Source: an uncultured Chlorobiaceae bacterium
GTDB taxonomy: Bacteria > Bacteroidota > Chlorobiia > Chlorobiales > Chlorobiaceae
Assembly: GCA_903869365.1 (NCBI GenBank)
Contig: CAIPYV010000020.1
Location: 1-38,633, forward strand
Length of the DNA stretch: 38,633 nt
Reading direction: 5' to 3'
The position numbers were made by a program, and so were the translations under genes. A model generated the notes under the pieces. That model ran no database searches, was not told where the DNA came from, and saw only the letters and a list, made by a program, of their open reading frames with translations. Of the stretch, positions 5,533 through 14,223 are shown piece by piece (the first letter of the stretch is position 1; each line of letters starts with the position of its first letter).

Positions 5533-6819
5533 CTAAACTACTGAACCATGCAGCTCAAAAGCGGTGGTATCGGTGATGCTTGCCAAACAGAATGAGCCGA
5601 CCCTGACATGCTTCTCTCCCATGGTGAGGATGCATTCATTGTCAACCTCCGGAGCATCATATTCCGTTCGGCCGATCGCGGTAGTATCTTCGATCATATC
5701 AATCAGAACCTTGACCTCTTTTCCCTCGAAAATCAGGTTTTTTTCTTCCGATACTCTTTCCTGTACCTCCATGAGTTCAGCGACCCGATCTCTTTTTTCA
5801 TCTTCGCTGAGCGTCTCCTCAAACGAATAAGAGGGAGCATGTTCCTCGTGACAGTAAGGGAAGCAGCCAAGTCGATCAAAACCGGTTTCTTCAACGAATT
5901 GCAACAACTCTTCAAACTCTTCACGGGTCTCCCCTGGATATCCTGCGATCATCGTGGTTCTCAGCCGGATGTCCGGGTTTTTTTCTCTTATGGTCTCAAT
6001 AAGACGGATGGTGTCACTTTTATTGATTCCTCGGTTCATTGATTGCAGAATTCTGCTGTTGCAGTGCTGCAGCGGAATGTCAAGATAGTTGCAGATATTT
6101 TCCCGTTTCCGCATGGTGTCGATTACCTCAAGCGGAAAGTTCACAGGGTAGGCATAGAACAGTCTGATCCAGTCGAAACCAATATCTGACAAGCGAAGCA
6201 CGAGGTCGTTCAGCAATGTTTTTCCCTCAAGATCATAGCCGTACATGCTGATGTCCTGCGCGATAACATTCAGCTCTTTGACCCCTGAGCTTTTCAGCAG
6301 AGTAGCTTCTCTGAGCAACTGTTCAGGCGGTTGGCTTATGTATCTTCCTCTTATTTTCGGAATTGAGCAGAAAGAACAGGCGCGGTTGCATCCTTCGGCA
6401 ATCTTGAGATACGCATAGTGAGGTGGTGTCAGTAATGATCGTTTATCGTAAAGCTCTTCGCGGTACTCGGACCCGAGAGCGGCAAGCACTTCCGGCAGTT
6501 CACGGGTGCCGAAAAAACCGTCAACTTCCGGCATCTCTTCCTGCAGCTCTGTTCTATGCAGTTCAGTAAGGCATCCCATCACATAAACCCGTTTAACGAC
6601 CCCCTCGGTTTTTTTATCAATGGCTGCCAGAGTTTCGGTAATGGATTCCTCTTTGGCATCGGCAATAAACCCGCAGGTGTTGATAAGAATAGTATCAGCC
6701 TCATCAGCCAAGTCAGTGAAGATGATCCCCGAAGCTTCAGCCTGTGCCATCAGGCGCTCCGAATCGACCGTGTTTTTCGAGCAGCCGAGGCTCAGAAGAA
6801 ATACTTTATGCTTGTTCAT
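5533..6819 (-). CDS. rimO: Ribosomal protein S12 methylthiotransferase RimO
   Basis: A radical-SAM enzyme that adds a methylthio group to the conserved Asp of ribosomal protein S12 in the cytoplasm. The protein shows the UPF0004 N-terminal domain with LGCSKNTVDSE and a second Cys in NTCGFI, then the radical-SAM cluster motif CNRACSFC with IPKIRGRY after it, and a C-terminal TRAM domain. LGCSKNxVDSE favours RimO over the tRNA enzyme MiaB. I chose the ATG at 6819 (428 residues); the frame continues upstream to a TTG at 6837 that has no better support. The start overlaps the end of tgt by 14 bases, so the two are translationally coupled. Confidence 0.92.
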   Translation of the reverse strand: MNKHKVFLLSLGCSKNTVDSERLMAQAEASGIIFTDLADEADTILINTCGFIADAKEESITETLAAIDKKTEGVVKRVYVMGCLTELHRTELQEEMPEVDGFFGTRELPEVLAALGSEYREELYDKRSLLTPPHYAYLKIAEGCNRACSFCSIPKIRGRYISQPPEQLLREATLLKSSGVKELNVIAQDISMYGYDLEGKTLLNDLVLRLSDIGFDWIRLFYAYPVNFPLEVIDTMRKRENICNYLDIPLQHCNSRILQSMNRGINKSDTIRLIETIREKNPDIRLRTTMIAGYPGETREEFEELLQFVEETGFDRLGCFPYCHEEHAPSYSFEETLSEDEKRDRVAELMEVQERVSEEKNLIFEGKEVKVLIDMIEDTTAIGRTEYDAPEVDNECILTMGEKHVRVGSFCLASITDTTAFELHGSVV

Positions 6820-7939
6820 TGCTATTGAATCGTTCAAGAAAATCCATTTTCCACTCTTTGAAAGCGCCTTGTTGTATCTGTTTTCGTGCCGTTGCAGTCA
6901 GCCACATGAAAAAAGAGATATTCTGCAGCGTGCACAGTTTCAGACCGAGAATTTCACCGACATTCAGAAGATGGCGGATATAAGCGCGAGAGAAGTTCCG
7001 GCACACATGGTTGTCGAATCCTTCATCAATTGAGGAGAAGTCAGCAGCATACTTCGCTGACCGCAGGTTCATCTTTCCGTGGCGGGTATAGACCCTGCCG
7101 TTCCGCCCTTCACGAGTGGGTATAACGCAGTCAAACATATCAACACCGCGTTCAATGGCATTGAGGATGTTTTCCGGAGTGCCGACCCCCATCAGGTAGC
7201 GCGGTTTCTCTTCGGGAAGCAGAGTATGGGAAAGTTCAAGGATCCGGTACATTTCAGCAGCCGGTTCTCCGACCGCCATGCCGCCTATTGAATATCCGTC
7301 AAAATCAAGATCGACCAAAGCCTCCGTCGAAATTTTGCGTAGATCCTCATGGATGCCGCCTTGTGTAATGCCGAAAAGGTATTGATCGTGACCATAAAGG
7401 GAAGAGGTCGTCGTAAAATGTTTTTTTGCCCGTTCAGCCCAGCGGATTGTCAGCTCTCCGGATGTGCGGATATACTCCTTTTCGGCTGTTGAAGGAGGGC
7501 ACTCATCAAGTGGCATCATGATGTCACTACCAATAATACGCTGGGTTTCAACGACATTTTCAGGGGTGAAGTGCTGTTTCGAACCATCAAGGTGCGATTT
7601 GAACATGACCCCCTCCTCTGAGATCTTGCGAAGGTCAGAGAGCGAGTAGACCTGGTATCCACCACTGTCCGTCAGGAGAGGCCCATCCCAGTTCATAAAC
7701 CGGTGCACACCGCCAGCTTTAAAAAGAATGTCGTTGCCAGGTTTCAGGTAGAGATGGTAGGTATTGGCCAGAATGATGTGGACGCTGCTCTCTTTCAGTT
7801 CCCGTGGCTCAACCGACTTGACGCTTGCGCGTGTGCCGACAGGCATAAATACAGGAGTAGGAACAATCCCATGGTCGGTTTCAAGAACTCCACATCGGGC
7901 GGAAGAGTGAGGATCGGTGGTAATGATGCTGAATTTCAT
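6806..7939 (-). CDS. tgt: tRNA-guanine transglycosylase (queuine tRNA-ribosyltransferase)
   Basis: Swaps guanine at the wobble position of GUN-anticodon tRNAs for preQ1, the first tRNA-bound step of queuosine synthesis. From the ATG at 7939 (RBS TTGAGG just before it) the protein has 377 residues. The general base Asp91 in LTDSGGYQ, the GGMAVGEP loop and the nucleophile Asp270 in FDCVIPTR are intact. The C-terminal zinc site is not: compared with the E. coli C-x-C-x2-C...H ligands, this protein has Phe308, Asn310, Cys313 and Gln339. The frame extends 13 codons further upstream, but that stretch looks non-coding. It is the first gene of the tgt-rimO-CMD operon. Confidence 0.92.
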   Translation of the reverse strand: MKFSIITTDPHSSARCGVLETDHGIVPTPVFMPVGTRASVKSVEPRELKESSVHIILANTYHLYLKPGNDILFKAGGVHRFMNWDGPLLTDSGGYQVYSLSDLRKISEEGVMFKSHLDGSKQHFTPENVVETQRIIGSDIMMPLDECPPSTAEKEYIRTSGELTIRWAERAKKHFTTTSSLYGHDQYLFGITQGGIHEDLRKISTEALVDLDFDGYSIGGMAVGEPAAEMYRILELSHTLLPEEKPRYLMGVGTPENILNAIERGVDMFDCVIPTREGRNGRVYTRHGKMNLRSAKYAADFSSIDEGFDNHVCRNFSRAYIRHLLNVGEILGLKLCTLQNISFFMWLTATARKQIQQGAFKEWKMDFLERFNSNEQA

Positions 7940-8275
7940 AACCTCAAGGTAGCCAATGACCCGCACAAAAAAAAGCATGGAAAGCGACTGTCGTCAGCTT
8001 TTCATGGCGATAATACCCAGATGGAAAATATTTGAAAAGGGTAGTGATTTTTTTGAAAATAATATATTAATTTATACGTGTCATGACGTAATTGTGATAA
8101 AATATTAATACATTAATATGGATAAAACGTAATTTATACTTTTTTTAGCAGCCGACAACTTGCACCTATATTGATTATCCAGCACGCTACTCATGATGGA
8201 CTTCGAGCTGCACGGGACCTTTATTCTATTTTTTTTCCTCAATGATGTGGACTTTTAGAATGTAACCCAATACCT
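7940..8275. promoter_or_regulatory. AT-rich divergent intergenic region with palindromic operator candidate
   Basis: This 336-base gap separates tgt (minus) from the sensor kinase (plus) and must hold both promoters. A perfect inverted repeat lies at 8102-8119: ATATTAAT, AC, ATTAATAT. A candidate plus-strand promoter TTGTGA (8092-8097), 16-base spacer, TAATAT (8114-8119) has its -10 box inside the right arm, so a bound protein would block it. I see no reading frame worth calling here. The promoter assignment is tentative. Confidence 0.35.
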
Positions 8276-10759
8276 ATGCAGAAAACCAGGTGCAGTAAAA
8301 AAACAGACATGCGTACCGTTAACCGGAAACACTTCGGAGAGGATACGCAGGCGGTAAGGAATGGTATTTCAGAGGTTGTCCTGCACTCCGTTTTCGTTAT
8401 TGATACCAAAGGGTATTTTGTCAGTTGGAGTGACTCTTTCCAGCAGAAAGCAGCAGTCAAACCTCGCAGAGCGAAAGATCGTATTAATGTTATTGACAAG
8501 CTGATTTATCATGCCGATCAGCCGCTTATCAAAGAAAAACTGTTGAATGTCCTGACAAAAGGCTATGCAGAAACAGCAGAAGCAAGGGTTCTTTTTCAGG
8601 GAGAGCAGGAGTTACGCTGGTTCATGATGACGGGCAGAAGGATAATGGTTGATGGAAATCCTTTCGTCATCTGTATGATACTCGACATCACCGCACGGAA
8701 GCGGGAGGAAGATACTCTTCTTCAAACAGCACATCAGTTTCGCTTCATTACAGAGAACCTCAATGGGGTTATTTTTACTGTTGATGGCAACTCGATATTG
8801 AGCTATGTTTCGCCGCCAGCTGAAACCCTCTTTGGGTTTATGCCGGATGAAATGATAGGGAAATCCTTTGCCGAATTTCTTGAAGAAGAAAAAGATATTC
8901 CTGGAACTCTTGCCGCCATCAATAAAACCGCCACCAATACCCTTCCGAAGCAGATACTCGAATTGCACTTTCGCAGAAAAAATGGTTCCCTTTTTTGGGG
9001 AGAGCTGCATTTACAATATGCCACAGATCAGGGAAATCCGATCATCGTAGGCGTGCTCCATGATGTCACGGCGCGCAAGGGCATAGAATTTCATTCTCTG
9101 TTTCGTGCCAGCCTGTTTGACAAAGCTGATACCTGTTCACTTGAAGAACTGCTTCAGGCAACGCTCGATGAGGCCGAACGCCTTACCGAGAGTACGATCG
9201 GGTTTTGCTACTTTCTCAGGGAGGATATGAGTGAACATGACCTGCAGGTTTTATCCAGCAATTCCATCAGGAAGACGCTTGGTACTCAAGGAGATGGCGA
9301 ACCGGACTGGTTAAACCAGATAAAGCATTTTGTTGAGGTATTACGGGCGCAGCGAACAGTCGTCCATAATGAATGCAATACGTCAGAGATTGTCATCAGC
9401 AGACCAGATAATCATTCGAAATTCAGGCGGACATTGGTTGTTCCCGTCATAAAAGGGGATATGGTTACAGCAATAGTCGGGGTTGGAGGAAAATCTGCTT
9501 GTTATGATGAGTACGATGAATGTGTGGTCAAAAGTTTTGCAGATATTGCCAGTGATCTTGTTTCCCGTAAACGTGCGGATCAGTCGGAAAAAAATGTATT
9601 CTCATCGTTGATTCAGACTCAGAAAATGGCATTTGTCGGCTGTTTTATCAAAAAAATGGGCTGTAACTACAGTCACATGCTCGATATCATTCATGATAAT
9701 GTCAGGATGGCGCTGGCTCACCAGCCATTAAGCAACTCGCTGGTAAATAACTTGAGGGATATTCTGGAAACCACTTGCAGTTATTCCGATATGATGAGTC
9801 AACTGTTGACGTTTGCACGAAGTAGTGTTGTTATGCCGATCGTTATTGATTTGAACATTCTTGTTGAAGGAAATCTGAGTACATTGAGAGAGCTTGTCGG
9901 CGAAAAAAATTCACTTGTCTGGATACCTGACAGACAAAAAACGCTGATAAAAATTGATCCTTCGCAGATTGATCAGCTTCTTGCCATTCTCTGTTTCAAT
10001 GCTCGATATGCAATAGCCGGTAAAGGTCAAATCACCATCGAAACCAGCCGGATTTCAGTCGATAACGATGATTGCGCCGCCGATCATGCATGCCTTGTAC
10101 CAGGAAACTATGTGATGCTTATCGTGAGTGATAATGGCATCGGGATAGAAAAACAGCATCTTCCCCATATTTTCGAACCTTTTTTTACAGCCTGGGAGGC
10201 AGGCAAAGCCATGGGTCTTGGCTTGTCGATAGCCTATGGTATAGCCAAACAGAACCGGGGATATGTTGATTGCCGGACTGAATTGGGTAAAGGAACCGTC
10301 TTTACCTTTTATTTACATCGTTATTCAGGGAAAAACTATTTTTCTGAAGATGAGCAACCGCATCCAGGCATGGAATTGAAAGAAACGATATTGCTGGTTG
10401 AAGAAGAACAGGATACCCTGAATCTCTATAAACGTATGCTTGAAAAAACAGGTTATAGTGTACTTGCCGTTGATACACCGGATGCAGCCGTCAGGATCGC
10501 ACATGAATACCGGGGCGATATTGATCTGCTTCTGGTTGATGCAGTCTTGCCGGACGTGAATGGCTGCGATCTTTCCAAACAGCTTTTAACGATCTTTCCC
10601 AAGTTAAAAACCTTGTTTATATCAGGTTCCGCTCACGTGTGTACCGCTCAACGCGGCATGCTCGGCGATGCAATCGGCTTTATCCGAAAGCCCTTTTTTA
10701 TCAATGAGCTGACGATAAAACTCAAAGAGCTCTTACGCTCCGTGGTTATTGTTTCTTAG
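8276..10759 (+). CDS. Hybrid sensor kinase (PAS-PAS-GAF-HisKA-like-HATPase-REC) with His replaced by Cys
   Basis: A soluble 827-residue signalling protein with no membrane segment. PAS domains lie at about 30-145 and 150-270, each ending in a DITARK/DVTARK motif. A GAF domain spans about 280-435. A dimerisation region covers about 445-515, then HATPase_c about 555-685 (N box around Asn575, DNGIGI 619-624, GLGLS 647-651), then a receiver about 703-820 with phospho-acceptor Asp755 and Lys805. The usual GGIAHDFNN segment reads KKMGCNYSH (459-467), so the expected phospho-His is Cys463; His467 is one turn away. The acidic pocket is EE rather than ED/DD. Monocistronic. The alternative ATG at 8309 is equally possible. 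The signal is unknown. Confidence 0.85.
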   Translation: MQKTRCSKKTDMRTVNRKHFGEDTQAVRNGISEVVLHSVFVIDTKGYFVSWSDSFQQKAAVKPRRAKDRINVIDKLIYHADQPLIKEKLLNVLTKGYAETAEARVLFQGEQELRWFMMTGRRIMVDGNPFVICMILDITARKREEDTLLQTAHQFRFITENLNGVIFTVDGNSILSYVSPPAETLFGFMPDEMIGKSFAEFLEEEKDIPGTLAAINKTATNTLPKQILELHFRRKNGSLFWGELHLQYATDQGNPIIVGVLHDVTARKGIEFHSLFRASLFDKADTCSLEELLQATLDEAERLTESTIGFCYFLREDMSEHDLQVLSSNSIRKTLGTQGDGEPDWLNQIKHFVEVLRAQRTVVHNECNTSEIVISRPDNHSKFRRTLVVPVIKGDMVTAIVGVGGKSACYDEYDECVVKSFADIASDLVSRKRADQSEKNVFSSLIQTQKMAFVGCFIKKMGCNYSHMLDIIHDNVRMALAHQPLSNSLVNNLRDILETTCSYSDMMSQLLTFARSSVVMPIVIDLNILVEGNLSTLRELVGEKNSLVWIPDRQKTLIKIDPSQIDQLLAILCFNARYAIAGKGQITIETSRISVDNDDCAADHACLVPGNYVMLIVSDNGIGIEKQHLPHIFEPFFTAWEAGKAMGLGLSIAYGIAKQNRGYVDCRTELGKGTVFTFYLHRYSGKNYFSEDEQPHPGMELKETILLVEEEQDTLNLYKRMLEKTGYSVLAVDTPDAAVRIAHEYRGDIDLLLVDAVLPDVNGCDLSKQLLTIFPKLKTLFISGSAHVCTAQRGMLGDAIGFIRKPFFINELTIKLKELLRSVVIVS

Positions 10760-10831: not shown

Positions 10832-11650
10832 TTATTCCATTGAGCTGACTTTGACCGATACCTTCAGAGTTTCCAGACCATTGCCTTTATACGTGCCGCG
10901 TACAGGCGGAACGTCATCATAGTCTCTCCCCGAACCGATTTTGATATATCGCTCATCGACAAAAAGGGTGCTGTGTGTGGGGTCCATACCGATCCACCCT
11001 TTCTCCTTGCCGCAATAAACTTCACACCATGCGTGAGTAGCTTCATCCCGTCCATCCGGAGTGCTTCCCCCGAAAAGGTAACCGCTGACATATCGGGCAG
11101 GCACACCGAGATAGCGGCAGGCAGCAAGCATGATATGGGCAAAATCCTGGCAGACTCCCCGTCCAAGTGCCATCACGACCGCACTGGTACTGTGTACGTC
11201 GGTTACTCCAGGTTCGTAGATGAATGATTCATTGATGTGCCGGCATATCGATTCAGCAAGCTGAAAACTGTCGGTATTGGTGGCGAAAATGGAAGCAAAG
11301 TCACGTATAGCCTGATCAAAATGCACATAGCGACTCTGGCAGGTGAAGTCGATGAGAAAAATATCCTCATCTTCCGAGGCGGCACAGTGTCCAATACCGG
11401 TTTCAACCACGGAAGTTGCAACGATTTTCACCTGTTTATGACTCTGGAGCAGGTTGAAATGATTGACAATGTTGCCGTAGAAATCGGTGTATTCAAAAAT
11501 AGTTGCTGGGGGATCGACCTCCAGCTTGAAGCTTGCACACCGCTGTGGCGCAGCATGGTTGTTGTCAGGGTGCAGCCTTACTTCAGTAGCTGTTTCATAG
11601 ATCGGATTATCATATTCAAACAGGGTGGAATGTTCAACTTTTACAATCAT
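10832..11650 (-). CDS. Transglutaminase-like cysteine protease/amidase family protein
   Basis: A 272-residue cytoplasmic protein with no signal peptide. The N-terminal 80 residues match the bacterial transglutaminase N-terminal region (MIVKVEHSTLFEYDNPI). The core has a complete Cys-His-Asp triad: Cys167 in GRGVCQDFAH, His206 in EATHAWCEVY and Asp223 in WIGMDPTH. Family members cleave or transfer amide bonds. It is the last of three genes with the ATP-grasp and alpha-E proteins, a conserved trio proposed from comparative genomics to make and trim a peptide-like product. The real substrate is not known. Confidence 0.87.
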   Translation of the reverse strand: MIVKVEHSTLFEYDNPIYETATEVRLHPDNNHAAPQRCASFKLEVDPPATIFEYTDFYGNIVNHFNLLQSHKQVKIVATSVVETGIGHCAASEDEDIFLIDFTCQSRYVHFDQAIRDFASIFATNTDSFQLAESICRHINESFIYEPGVTDVHSTSAVVMALGRGVCQDFAHIMLAACRYLGVPARYVSGYLFGGSTPDGRDEATHAWCEVYCGKEKGWIGMDPTHSTLFVDERYIKIGSGRDYDDVPPVRGTYKGNGLETLKVSVKVSSME

Positions 11651-11674
11651 GCTCTCATGGTTAAGTGTGTCAGG

Positions 11675-12754
11675 TTATTGCTGCTGTTGCTGCTGATGCT
11701 GTTGTGCTTGGCTCCAGTTAGGACGTCCTCCGGCAACTCCGGTAAAAGGAAGTGCTTCAGCAATATCCGATGATTCAATTTCAGGGGTATGATAGGCAAA
11801 ATAGGTAAGGTGCACTTGTTCGCCAACTTTAACCAACCGCTGTTCAAGATCTTCAAGATAAACGTGTAATCCTTTCGAATAGATATCTTCAATGTTGGTA
11901 TAGCTGAGCTCTGCTTCTAATTTTCCGATCAGCCGGTCAGCATTGTTGACATAGCGGTGACGTGAGCTTCCCGATATGCGCCATAAAGCATCTTCAGCAG
12001 CACAGACTGAAAAGTTGATGCTGCGTGGAAATGTTCTGTCAAGAATGAGAAAACGCAGGATGTTGTCAGGATCGATTTTTGACAGATAGACTTTACGGAA
12101 GGCCTCCAGAGCACTGCAGCTTTTAAGCACGGCCATCCATTGAATAATATCCTCCGATCCCTCTACAATCTCAGCCTGGCTCTGTGCCTCTGAAAGCAGC
12201 ATGTGGTACTTGACATCAATAAGCCGTGCTATATTATCGCTTCGTTCAAGATACTTGGCAATCTGGATGAAGTCCCATCCTTCATTACGGGAAAAGGTGT
12301 TATCCGTAATCCCCTGAAAAAGATGAGATGCGTTTTTGATCTCCTTGTAAAACCCGTAGGGATCATTATGAACGAAGTGCGGCGTAACGCTCTGCAGATA
12401 GTGGTAGAGATTGTTGACCTGCTCCCACATTTCGCTTGATATGCTTTCGATAATGCTCCGCGCATTTTCTCTTGCCAGACCGATACAGGAGATGATGGAG
12501 TTCGGATTATTTTTGTTGAACACCAGATAATCGGTAACGCTCTGTGCACTGTACTCGCCGTACAGATTGTTGAAACGTTCCTTGTCGCTGGTGACAAGAA
12601 TGAGAGCTATCCAGTAATTCGGATTCTCGACATGAGTAATTTTATTCAGGTCGAGCAGCAGGTTGAAATTGACATCGAGGAACCTTGCTGTGTTTTCAGC
12701 CCGTTCAAAATAACGACTCATCCAGAACAGGGATTCGGCAACACGGCTTAACAT
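11675..12754 (-). CDS. Alpha-E domain protein (DUF403)
   Basis: A 359-residue helical protein that opens with MLSRVAESLFWMSRYFERAENTARFLDVN, in description the classic alpha-E start (key residues SLFWMSRY-ERAE). The family is always found next to circularly permuted ATP-grasp and transglutaminase-like proteins, as here. No catalytic residues are known; it may be a scaffold or a substrate. The C-terminus ends in a glutamine-rich tail (QAQQHQQQQQQ) coded by a CAG/CAA run, which is not part of the domain. It sits 20 bases after the ATP-grasp gene. Confidence 0.9.
   Translation of the reverse strand: MLSRVAESLFWMSRYFERAENTARFLDVNFNLLLDLNKITHVENPNYWIALILVTSDKERFNNLYGEYSAQSVTDYLVFNKNNPNSIISCIGLARENARSIIESISSEMWEQVNNLYHYLQSVTPHFVHNDPYGFYKEIKNASHLFQGITDNTFSRNEGWDFIQIAKYLERSDNIARLIDVKYHMLLSEAQSQAEIVEGSEDIIQWMAVLKSCSALEAFRKVYLSKIDPDNILRFLILDRTFPRSINFSVCAAEDALWRISGSSRHRYVNNADRLIGKLEAELSYTNIEDIYSKGLHVYLEDLEQRLVKVGEQVHLTYFAYHTPEIESSDIAEALPFTGVAGGRPNWSQAQQHQQQQQQ
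11678..11704 (-). repeat. CAG/CAA triplet run coding a poly-Gln tail
   Basis: Nine in-frame codons just before the alpha-E stop read almost only CAG or CAA on the minus strand, broken by one CAT (His). Such a run is prone to slippage, so the tail length may vary between strains without affecting the folded domain. Confidence 0.7.
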
Positions 12755-12774
12755 AGATAATCAGTGATTAGTGT

Positions 12775-14223
12775 TTATTCATCGACAACCCAGGTGTCCT
12801 TGCTGCCACCGCCCTGAGAGGAGTTGACAACCAGTGACCCACGCTTGAGGGCAACTCTTGTCAGTCCACCCGGAACAATAGTAACAGTTTTACCATACAA
12901 AACATAGGGGCGCAGATCGATATGACATCCCCAAAGGTCGGTGTCATTGAAAAAGCTGGGGTGACGCGACAGCGAAATAGTTGGCTGCGCAATGTAGTTG
13001 CGGGGATGAGCCACAATCATTTCGGCAAAATTCTCCTGCTGTTCAATTGTTGATTCAGGTCCTATCAGCATACCGTATCCGCCGGATTCATTCGCCGCCT
13101 TGACAACAAGTGTTCCTAAATTTTCAAGGATATATTTCAGATGTGAAGGATTGCTGGCAAGCCATGTCGGTACATTCTGCAGAATCGGATCTTCACCAAG
13201 ATAGTATTTGATGATTTCAGGCACAAAGCTGTAAATGACCTTGTCATCAGCCACGCCGGTTCCAATGGCATTGGCCAGCGTCACATTCCCTTTGCGATAT
13301 GCATTGACAAGACCAGCGACACCAAGCTTCGAATCCGGGCGGAACACAAGGGGATCAATATAGGCATCATCAACTCTTCTGTAAATCACATCAACCCGCT
13401 CAAGGCCACGGGTAGTTCTGGTGTAGACCTTATTATTGTTGACGACAAGATCTTTTCCTTCAGTCAGTTCAACGCCCATCTGTCGGGCAAGGAAACTGTG
13501 TTCAAAATAGGCGGAATTGTAGATGCCGGGAGTAAGAACCACAACATTCGGTTCGCGACGGGAATCAGGACTGATCTCCTGCAGGGTGCGCAGAAGTTCC
13601 TGCGGATAATTTTCTATCGGTCGGATCTTGTATTTGTCAAAGAGTACCGGAAACGCCCGTTTCATCGCCTGCCGGTTTTGCAGCATATAAGAGACGCCGC
13701 TCGGGGTGCGCAGGTTGTCTTCAAGAACTAAGTAGTTGCCATCGCCATCGCGAATGATATCGCTTCCGGTGACATGAATGTAAATACCAAGCGGAGGGTT
13801 TACACCAACAAACTCCCTTCTGAAATGCTGGCTTCCTAAAATCAGTTCCGGAGGGATTATTTTGTCTTTGAGGATTTTCTGAGTGTGATAGATATCATAC
13901 AGAAACTCATTGAGTGCTGTAATTCTCTGCACAAGACCTTTTTCGATGGCCTGCCATTCATGAGCCGCTACAACTCTCGGAATAAGATCGAAGGGAAAAA
14001 TCCGCTCCACACCCTCTTCCTCGCCGTAAACGGTAAAGGTGATACCCTGATTCCGAAAAAAAATGTTAACAATTTCTCGGCGGGCTTTGATATCATCAAT
14101 CGAAAACTGACCGAAGCGGTGAAGCAGTTTGTCGTAATGAGGCCGGGCGATTCCTTCCTTTGAGATAACCTCATCAAAAAACCGGCTGGTTTCTGCTTCA
14201 TATCGCTCAAAAAAGCGACTCAT
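12775..14223 (-). CDS. Circularly permuted type 2 ATP-grasp protein (DUF404/DUF407)
   Basis: A 482-residue predicted peptide ligase. Hallmarks are the N-terminal [10 protein letters not shown]-like segment (here [27 protein letters not shown]), the [17 protein letters not shown] motif near the middle, the [12 protein letters not shown] loop, and the C-terminal [14 protein letters not shown] nucleotide-binding loop and RPYVLYGK segment. ATP-grasp enzymes join a carboxylate to an amine using ATP. It is the first gene of the three-gene cassette, with a reasonable RBS (AAGGAA) upstream. The natural substrate is not known. Confidence 0.9.

Follow-up and report, generated by a model that had tools for sequence, protein, structure and literature searches.

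The question raised by this locus is what a hybrid sensor kinase can do when a cysteine stands where its phospho-acceptor histidine is expected. The gene lies in the window, that is, the whole stretch of 38,633 nucleotides analyzed here, between a tgt gene and a transglutaminase-like gene. Here we present its features, its comparison with orthologues and more distant relatives, and a reading of its probable mode of action. Published work is cited by accession and was consulted as excerpts of the articles. The features are as follows.

6806..7978, - strand: tgt, upstream flank, common to 10/10 carriers; context, outside the mechanism
8276..10759, + strand: putative pseudo-histidine kinase gene, a single open frame of 827 aa, stop codon counted in the coordinates
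8363..8695, + strand: first PAS domain, about residues 30-140 (PAS_9 in 2 stretches, Pfam)
8735..9073, + strand: second PAS domain, residues 154-266 (PAS_9 and PAS, Pfam)
9137..9556, + strand: GAF domain, residues 288-427 (GAF_2, E 1e-10, Pfam)
9509..9820, + strand: DHp-like helical hairpin without acceptor His, helices 412-481 and 487-515 (AlphaFold model; HisKA unmatched)
9662..9664, + strand: TGT codon of Cys463, in the place of the phospho-acceptor His (alignment with relatives)
9665..9667, + strand: Asn464 at H+1, where relatives are acidic (Asp 97/98, Glu 1/98; alignment)
9674..9676, + strand: His467 at H+4, where the phosphatase motif has T/N; H4, Q3, S2, N1 in the clade (alignment)
9956..10318, + strand: HATPase_c (CA) domain, residues 561-681; N575, D619, G621, G623, G647 and G649 intact
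9986..9988, + strand: Ile571, first N-box Asn lost; Asn in 98/98 relatives (alignment)
10388..10723, + strand: receiver domain, residues 705-816 (Response_reg), D755 kept and D710 replaced by Glu
10832..11650, - strand: transglutaminase-like gene, downstream flank, common to 10/10 carriers; context only

According to Pfam the domain order of the protein is PAS, PAS, GAF, HATPase_c and Response_reg; HisKA was matched neither in the window protein nor in any member of the orthologous clade described below (0/10). No membrane helix is evident in a Kyte-Doolittle scan, where the top mean over 19 residues is 1.6 and falls inside the GAF domain. The PAS-PAS-GAF input and the lack of membrane helices given in a preliminary description of this DNA are borne out by these two analyses. 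The first PAS domain is missing from the orthologues L174 (G053) and L175 (G050), which keep the initial residues of the protein and continue directly with the second PAS domain. The full-length AlphaFold model (33 sequences) has a mean pLDDT of 73 and a pTM of 0.38 and shows both DHp helices and the expected folds; because of the pTM value the arrangement of the domains is unreliable, and these helices and folds alone were used. Fold matches of the model include the CckA DHp-CA structure 5idj (TM 0.66 over the target), the CckA CA structure 5idm (0.82), FixL PAS dimers and NifL-NifA 9qq6. The nearest solved structure by sequence is CckA (PDB 5idj, E 1.6e-25; 5idm, E 2.4e-17).

Residues 459-467 of the window protein are KKMGCNYSH. 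The alignment set consisted of 120 open frames covering the region, 108 once copies were removed, and it included 98 non-identical relatives. Of these relatives, 95 carry His at position 463 and the other three Q, R and Y, which confirms that Cys463 occupies the place of the acceptor. In the ten orthologues the position is occupied by C, C, C, V, A, S, G, G, S and T, always small and not conserved. Orthologues with His at this spot, named beforehand as evidence to the contrary, did not turn up (0/10). A strain mutation or sequencing error is rejected, since ten genomes carry the gene and none has the acceptor His. Cys463 is confined to one sub-clade of three orthologues (G000, G052 and G078), and phosphorylation or redox sensing at this cysteine, offered as an option in the preliminary description, is contradicted by the orthologue alignment. 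The same applies to His467 as acceptor, as His is found there in 4/10 orthologues and residues 440-515 of the G053 orthologue, with its whole DHp region, are free of His. His473, present in the window copy alone (1/10), is rejected as well. The acidic residue after the acceptor, D464, is kept in 2/10 orthologues. In helix 1 the GG preceding the acceptor is now basic or polar, with Lys or Arg at position 460 in 9/10 orthologues, and Ser466 is invariant; these changes may be marks of a new contact surface.

The host genome (G000; 2.93 Mb, 136 contigs) contains 56 HATPase_c places. The DHp is readable in 46 of them and His is present in 45, with the window gene as the exception; the other ten were set aside, six as fragments or broken frames and four as other GHKL proteins by sequence reading. 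In G000 the kinase frames at C134:11618-11947 and C42:6105-6422 contain an internal stop codon, and several kinase fragments lie at the ends of contigs; its large complement of kinases may be partly collapsed or decaying.

The search covered 65 genomes of one genus of the Chlorobiaceae, a family of green sulfur bacteria, and gave clear orthologues in 10 of them, counting that of the window, with 55-75% identity over the common length, and the best non-orthologue matches in the 65 genomes are at most 49% identical. All ten carriers have the gene between tgt and the transglutaminase gene. Across carriers the flanks share 87-93% (TGT) and 90-96% (transglutaminase) identity, compared with the 55-75% of the pseudokinase gene. 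The nine best tgt matches to the window are the nine other carriers, and since the tgt ranking equals the carrier set, inheritance of the gene appears to have been vertical, inside a single species group. In a quick tree search without bootstrap the ten orthologues form one clade (SH-aLRT 100); the relative closest to it, L047, retains HDFNN and is matched by HisKA. Because there is one clade, a variable residue at 463 and an HDFNN motif in L047, the loss of His is old and most simply single, with subsequent drift of the replacement. This drift speaks against a clade-wide role of Cys463.

In the 23 of 55 non-carriers inspected, no homologue lies beside tgt, hence there is no His-bearing orthologue at the locus in these genomes. 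In four further non-carriers, G044, G022, G041 and G046, the distance between tgt and transglutaminase is 107-155 bases by coordinates; G072 gave no matches to either flanking gene. The site varies among 13 non-carriers (L161-L173): in some the gap is too short to contain a gene, while others have longer inserts or a frame of some 340 aa that reads as hydrolase-like, and this gap may be a tolerated insertion spot. On the other side of the gene, window positions 10832-14223 (- strand) hold consecutive transglutaminase, Alpha-E and circularly permuted ATP-grasp genes, a row that we take to be a known cassette type. It adjoins the gene in those carriers whose contigs reach far enough.

The N, G1 and G2 boxes had initially been regarded as functional-looking. 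This stands for the ATP-pocket residues N575 (N box), D619, G621 and G623 (G1) and G647 and G649 (G2), which are kept in 10/10 orthologues, but the N box departs from the norm in the Ile at its first Asn position. Position 571 is I, T, A or L in the ten orthologues and Asn in none, versus Asn in every relative. Excerpts of PMC3904827 describe a Michaelis complex of CpxA in which Glu249 (H+1) and Asn356, the first N-box Asn, activate the His, whereas Asn360, the second N-box Asn, holds the nucleotide. They further report that N356Y is strongly kinase-deficient and that the catalytic Glu of GHKL ATPases sits at the position of Asn356. The equivalents of Glu249, Asn356 and Asn360 by position are 464, 571 and 575, and Glu at 571 occurs in 0/10 orthologues. 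The losses of D464 and N571, the absence of Glu571 and the retention of N575, G1 and G2 suggest that the transfer chemistry has been removed and the nucleotide pocket retained. The retained pocket could also reflect mere fold stability. Compared with an active HisKA kinase, the clade thus has the nucleotide-pocket residues (10/10) but neither the acceptor His in the H box (0/10) nor the combination of H+1 acidic residue (2/10) and first N-box Asn (0/10). A histidine-kinase fold with the catalytic step missing across orthologues, as expected of a pseudo-histidine kinase, is found in the ten genomes.

All ten carriers have intact frames with zero internal stops. For the 11 of 45 pairs listed, dN/dS over the whole gene is 0.20-0.30; for the first PAS domain it is 0.08-0.37 in listed pairs with the domain in both members. 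In five genomes dN/dS of the DHp region is 0.11-0.81 versus 0.02-0.14 in a His-bearing hybrid paralogue (7 of 10 pairs computable), and that of the CA domain 0.10-0.23 versus 0.05-0.36 (9 of 10 pairs). In this comparison several dS values are above 1 and hence imprecise, and values with saturated dS were left out. The ratio of DHp to CA divergence, taken from protein distances of pairs that are not independent, has a clade median of 1.76 (39 pairs), a value reached by none of 793 pairs of relatives with the same CA divergence. Constraint on the DHp region is relaxed and constraint on the ATPase fold is maintained, under purifying selection (dN/dS about 0.2-0.3).

The receiver had likewise been considered functional-looking on account of Asp755. 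The residue is present in the window copy, but position 710, an Asp in 91 of the 98 relatives, is Glu in this copy, and phosphorylation of the window receiver is doubtful for this reason. The ten orthologues have D (4), N (5) or E (1) at position 755 and D (4), E (4) or G (2) at position 710. With respect to the DD, D, T/S and K residues of a phosphorylatable receiver, S/T783 and K805 are found in 10/10, whereas D710 and D755 occur together only in G052 and G050 (2/10). Under the definition of an aspartate-less receiver taken from an excerpt of PMC12632262, at least six orthologues, those without D755, fall into this class. The receiver is eroding, probably on its way toward a module for protein contact only. 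L098 (G073), a His-bearing relative, has Asn in place of the receiver Asp, giving an active-looking kinase with an apparently dead receiver.

The protein is probably a cytoplasmic pseudo-histidine kinase that binds nucleotide, exerts its action by contact with other proteins and derives from a GGIAHDFNN (CckA-like) hybrid kinase. The alignments show the His, mostly the H+1 acid, and the N-box Asn to be gone clade-wide, while the predicted Mg-ATP residues remain under purifying selection. As the phosphate-passing parts are lost and the pocket is kept, signalling would probably proceed by a change of shape and by touching other proteins. Among the options put forward in the preliminary description, a pseudokinase with nucleotide-driven shape change fits best, with His absent and the pocket kept in 10/10. 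With an ordinary GGIAHDFNN hybrid kinase as the presumed ancestor, the protein would bind ATP or ADP with neither autophosphorylation nor ATP hydrolysis, the latter being argued solely from the missing catalytic residue at 571. PAS/GAF input and nucleotide state would together fix the arrangement of DHp hairpin and CA domain, and a dimer or mixed dimer would work by engaging a partner protein, the likeliest candidates being the many other kinases of the cell and response regulators. Among the 20 window proteins scanned there is no two-component partner gene. As to co-inheritance, the one candidate paralogue tested, L064, was rejected because at high similarity it is absent from 4/10 carriers; the best 15 candidates per large genome were scored, and weaker copies may have been overlooked.

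More tentatively, and with rather more doubt than belief on our part, the protein may be silent in both halves, a pseudokinase joined to a pseudoreceiver. Deprived of its entire phosphoryl-transfer centre, it would then be a sensor gated by energy charge that joins PAS/GAF input to ATP/ADP and docks onto the cell's many active kinases.

Four other explanations have to be weighed against a nucleotide-binding pseudokinase. An obligate pairing of the protein with a single, specific active hybrid kinase in a mixed dimer, its receiver being phosphorylated in trans, has a precedent in the pseudokinase ChrS with HrrS (excerpt of PMC9491836) and agrees with the four orthologues that keep D755. Since the other six have lost this residue, trans-phosphorylation cannot be general, and at high similarity the L064 paralogue group is present in six carriers and G072, but not in G000, G052, G078 and G016; we regard this explanation as unlikely. 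A kinase-dead phosphatase, dephosphorylating a partner regulator by means of the H+4 residue, appears improbable. Position 467 is polar in 10/10 orthologues, and excerpts of PMC12632262 state that the His is not strictly required for HisKA phosphatase activity. They state, together with excerpts of PMC5727384, that the His also contributes to the HisKA reaction; furthermore, the E/DxxT/N motif (PMC5727384, in excerpt) is whole in one orthologue, G016 (D464, N467), and the DHp region is relaxed rather than held.

A functionless, decaying gene would account for the relaxed DHp region, for the missing first PAS domain in 2/10 orthologues, for the loss of receiver Asp755 in 6/10 and for an evolution faster than that of the flanking genes (55-75% versus 87-96% identity), which could itself represent slow decay. 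The ten intact frames, dN/dS well below 1 in CA, PAS and GAF, the ATP-pocket residues in 10/10 and the one locus maintained across the clade make this explanation improbable as well. That Cys463 or another DHp residue (His467 or His473) has become a new phospho- or redox-acceptor is scarcely credible. The cysteine is common to its sub-clade, but as a clade-wide mechanism such chemistry is contradicted by the distribution of all three residues (3/10, 4/10 and 1/10), by the His-free DHp region of one member and by the loss of Asn571 in 10/10.

The nucleotide-binding pseudokinase has several counterparts among known systems. DivL of Caulobacter resembles it in having a PAS-fed histidine-kinase module whose acceptor His is replaced across orthologues, and functions without kinase activity (excerpts of PMC4211667). 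According to the same excerpts, DivL proteins conserve a Tyr at this place, apart from one with Ala, and bind nucleotide weakly, their CA domain being dispensable, whereas here the residues are small and variable and the CA pocket is conserved. Tyr is found in 0/10 orthologues, which argues against membership in the DivL family, but Tyr alone is not decisive because of the one DivL reported with Ala. No entry named DivL is among the 26 PDB matches at E 0.001. The twofold silent protein considered above would be the inverse of DivL in its nucleotide binding and CA domain. NifL of Azotobacter vinelandii is similar in its PAS-PAS input, helical H region and GHKL domain, which binds ATP/ADP without hydrolysis, its action being exerted by partner binding (excerpts of PMC9866876). 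It differs in that it retains the conserved His, has no receiver among the four domains described in these excerpts and targets NifA. The clade has no linked NifA, its flanks being tgt and transglutaminase in 10/10, and no nifA-like gene was found among the 20 window proteins scanned. The protein is best read as working like DivL or NifL, yet as belonging to neither family.

Closest by sequence are CckA and the GGIAHDFNN hybrids of the genus, and the nearest relatives within the genus are active-looking HDFNN hybrids; CckA, however, is a bifunctional kinase with His, whereas here H463, N571 and mostly D464 are gone. RocA of group A Streptococcus is likewise a pseudokinase, modulating the real kinase CovS, but shows the reverse pattern, being a membrane protein with a CA domain without kinase residues and with a retained but dispensable H246 (excerpts of PMC7028121). 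DivL, RocA and evolved ChrS are examples of pseudokinases that direct genuine kinases or regulators, and NifL shows that a non-hydrolysing, nucleotide-binding GHKL domain can gate protein contact.

Pseudo-histidine kinases are a recognised class, and HisKA domains without His amount to 722 of 76,471 (0.9%) in a published survey (excerpts of PMC12632262). No paper on a Chlorobi group of this kind was found in the open literature. What sets the clade apart is the combination, in ten genomes, of a full-length hybrid with His and first N-box Asn lost, the pocket kept and the receiver eroding. Since the His was lost once and long ago in this clade, the N-box Asn went with it, the ATP pocket is intact and the receiver is half eroded, it becomes possible to test nucleotide binding without phosphotransfer as a signal in the histidine-kinase fold. 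The pattern of His gone, first N-box Asn gone and second Asn kept suggests a simple screen for distinguishing settled pseudokinases from recent point losses. Three single hybrid kinases of the genus, L089 (G020), L102 (G062) and L108 (G077), have Q, R or Y in place of the His and an intact Asn571. Because Asn571 is kept, they look like recent, separate losses; they may represent such losses or assembly errors, and hint that loss of the His recurs in the genus.
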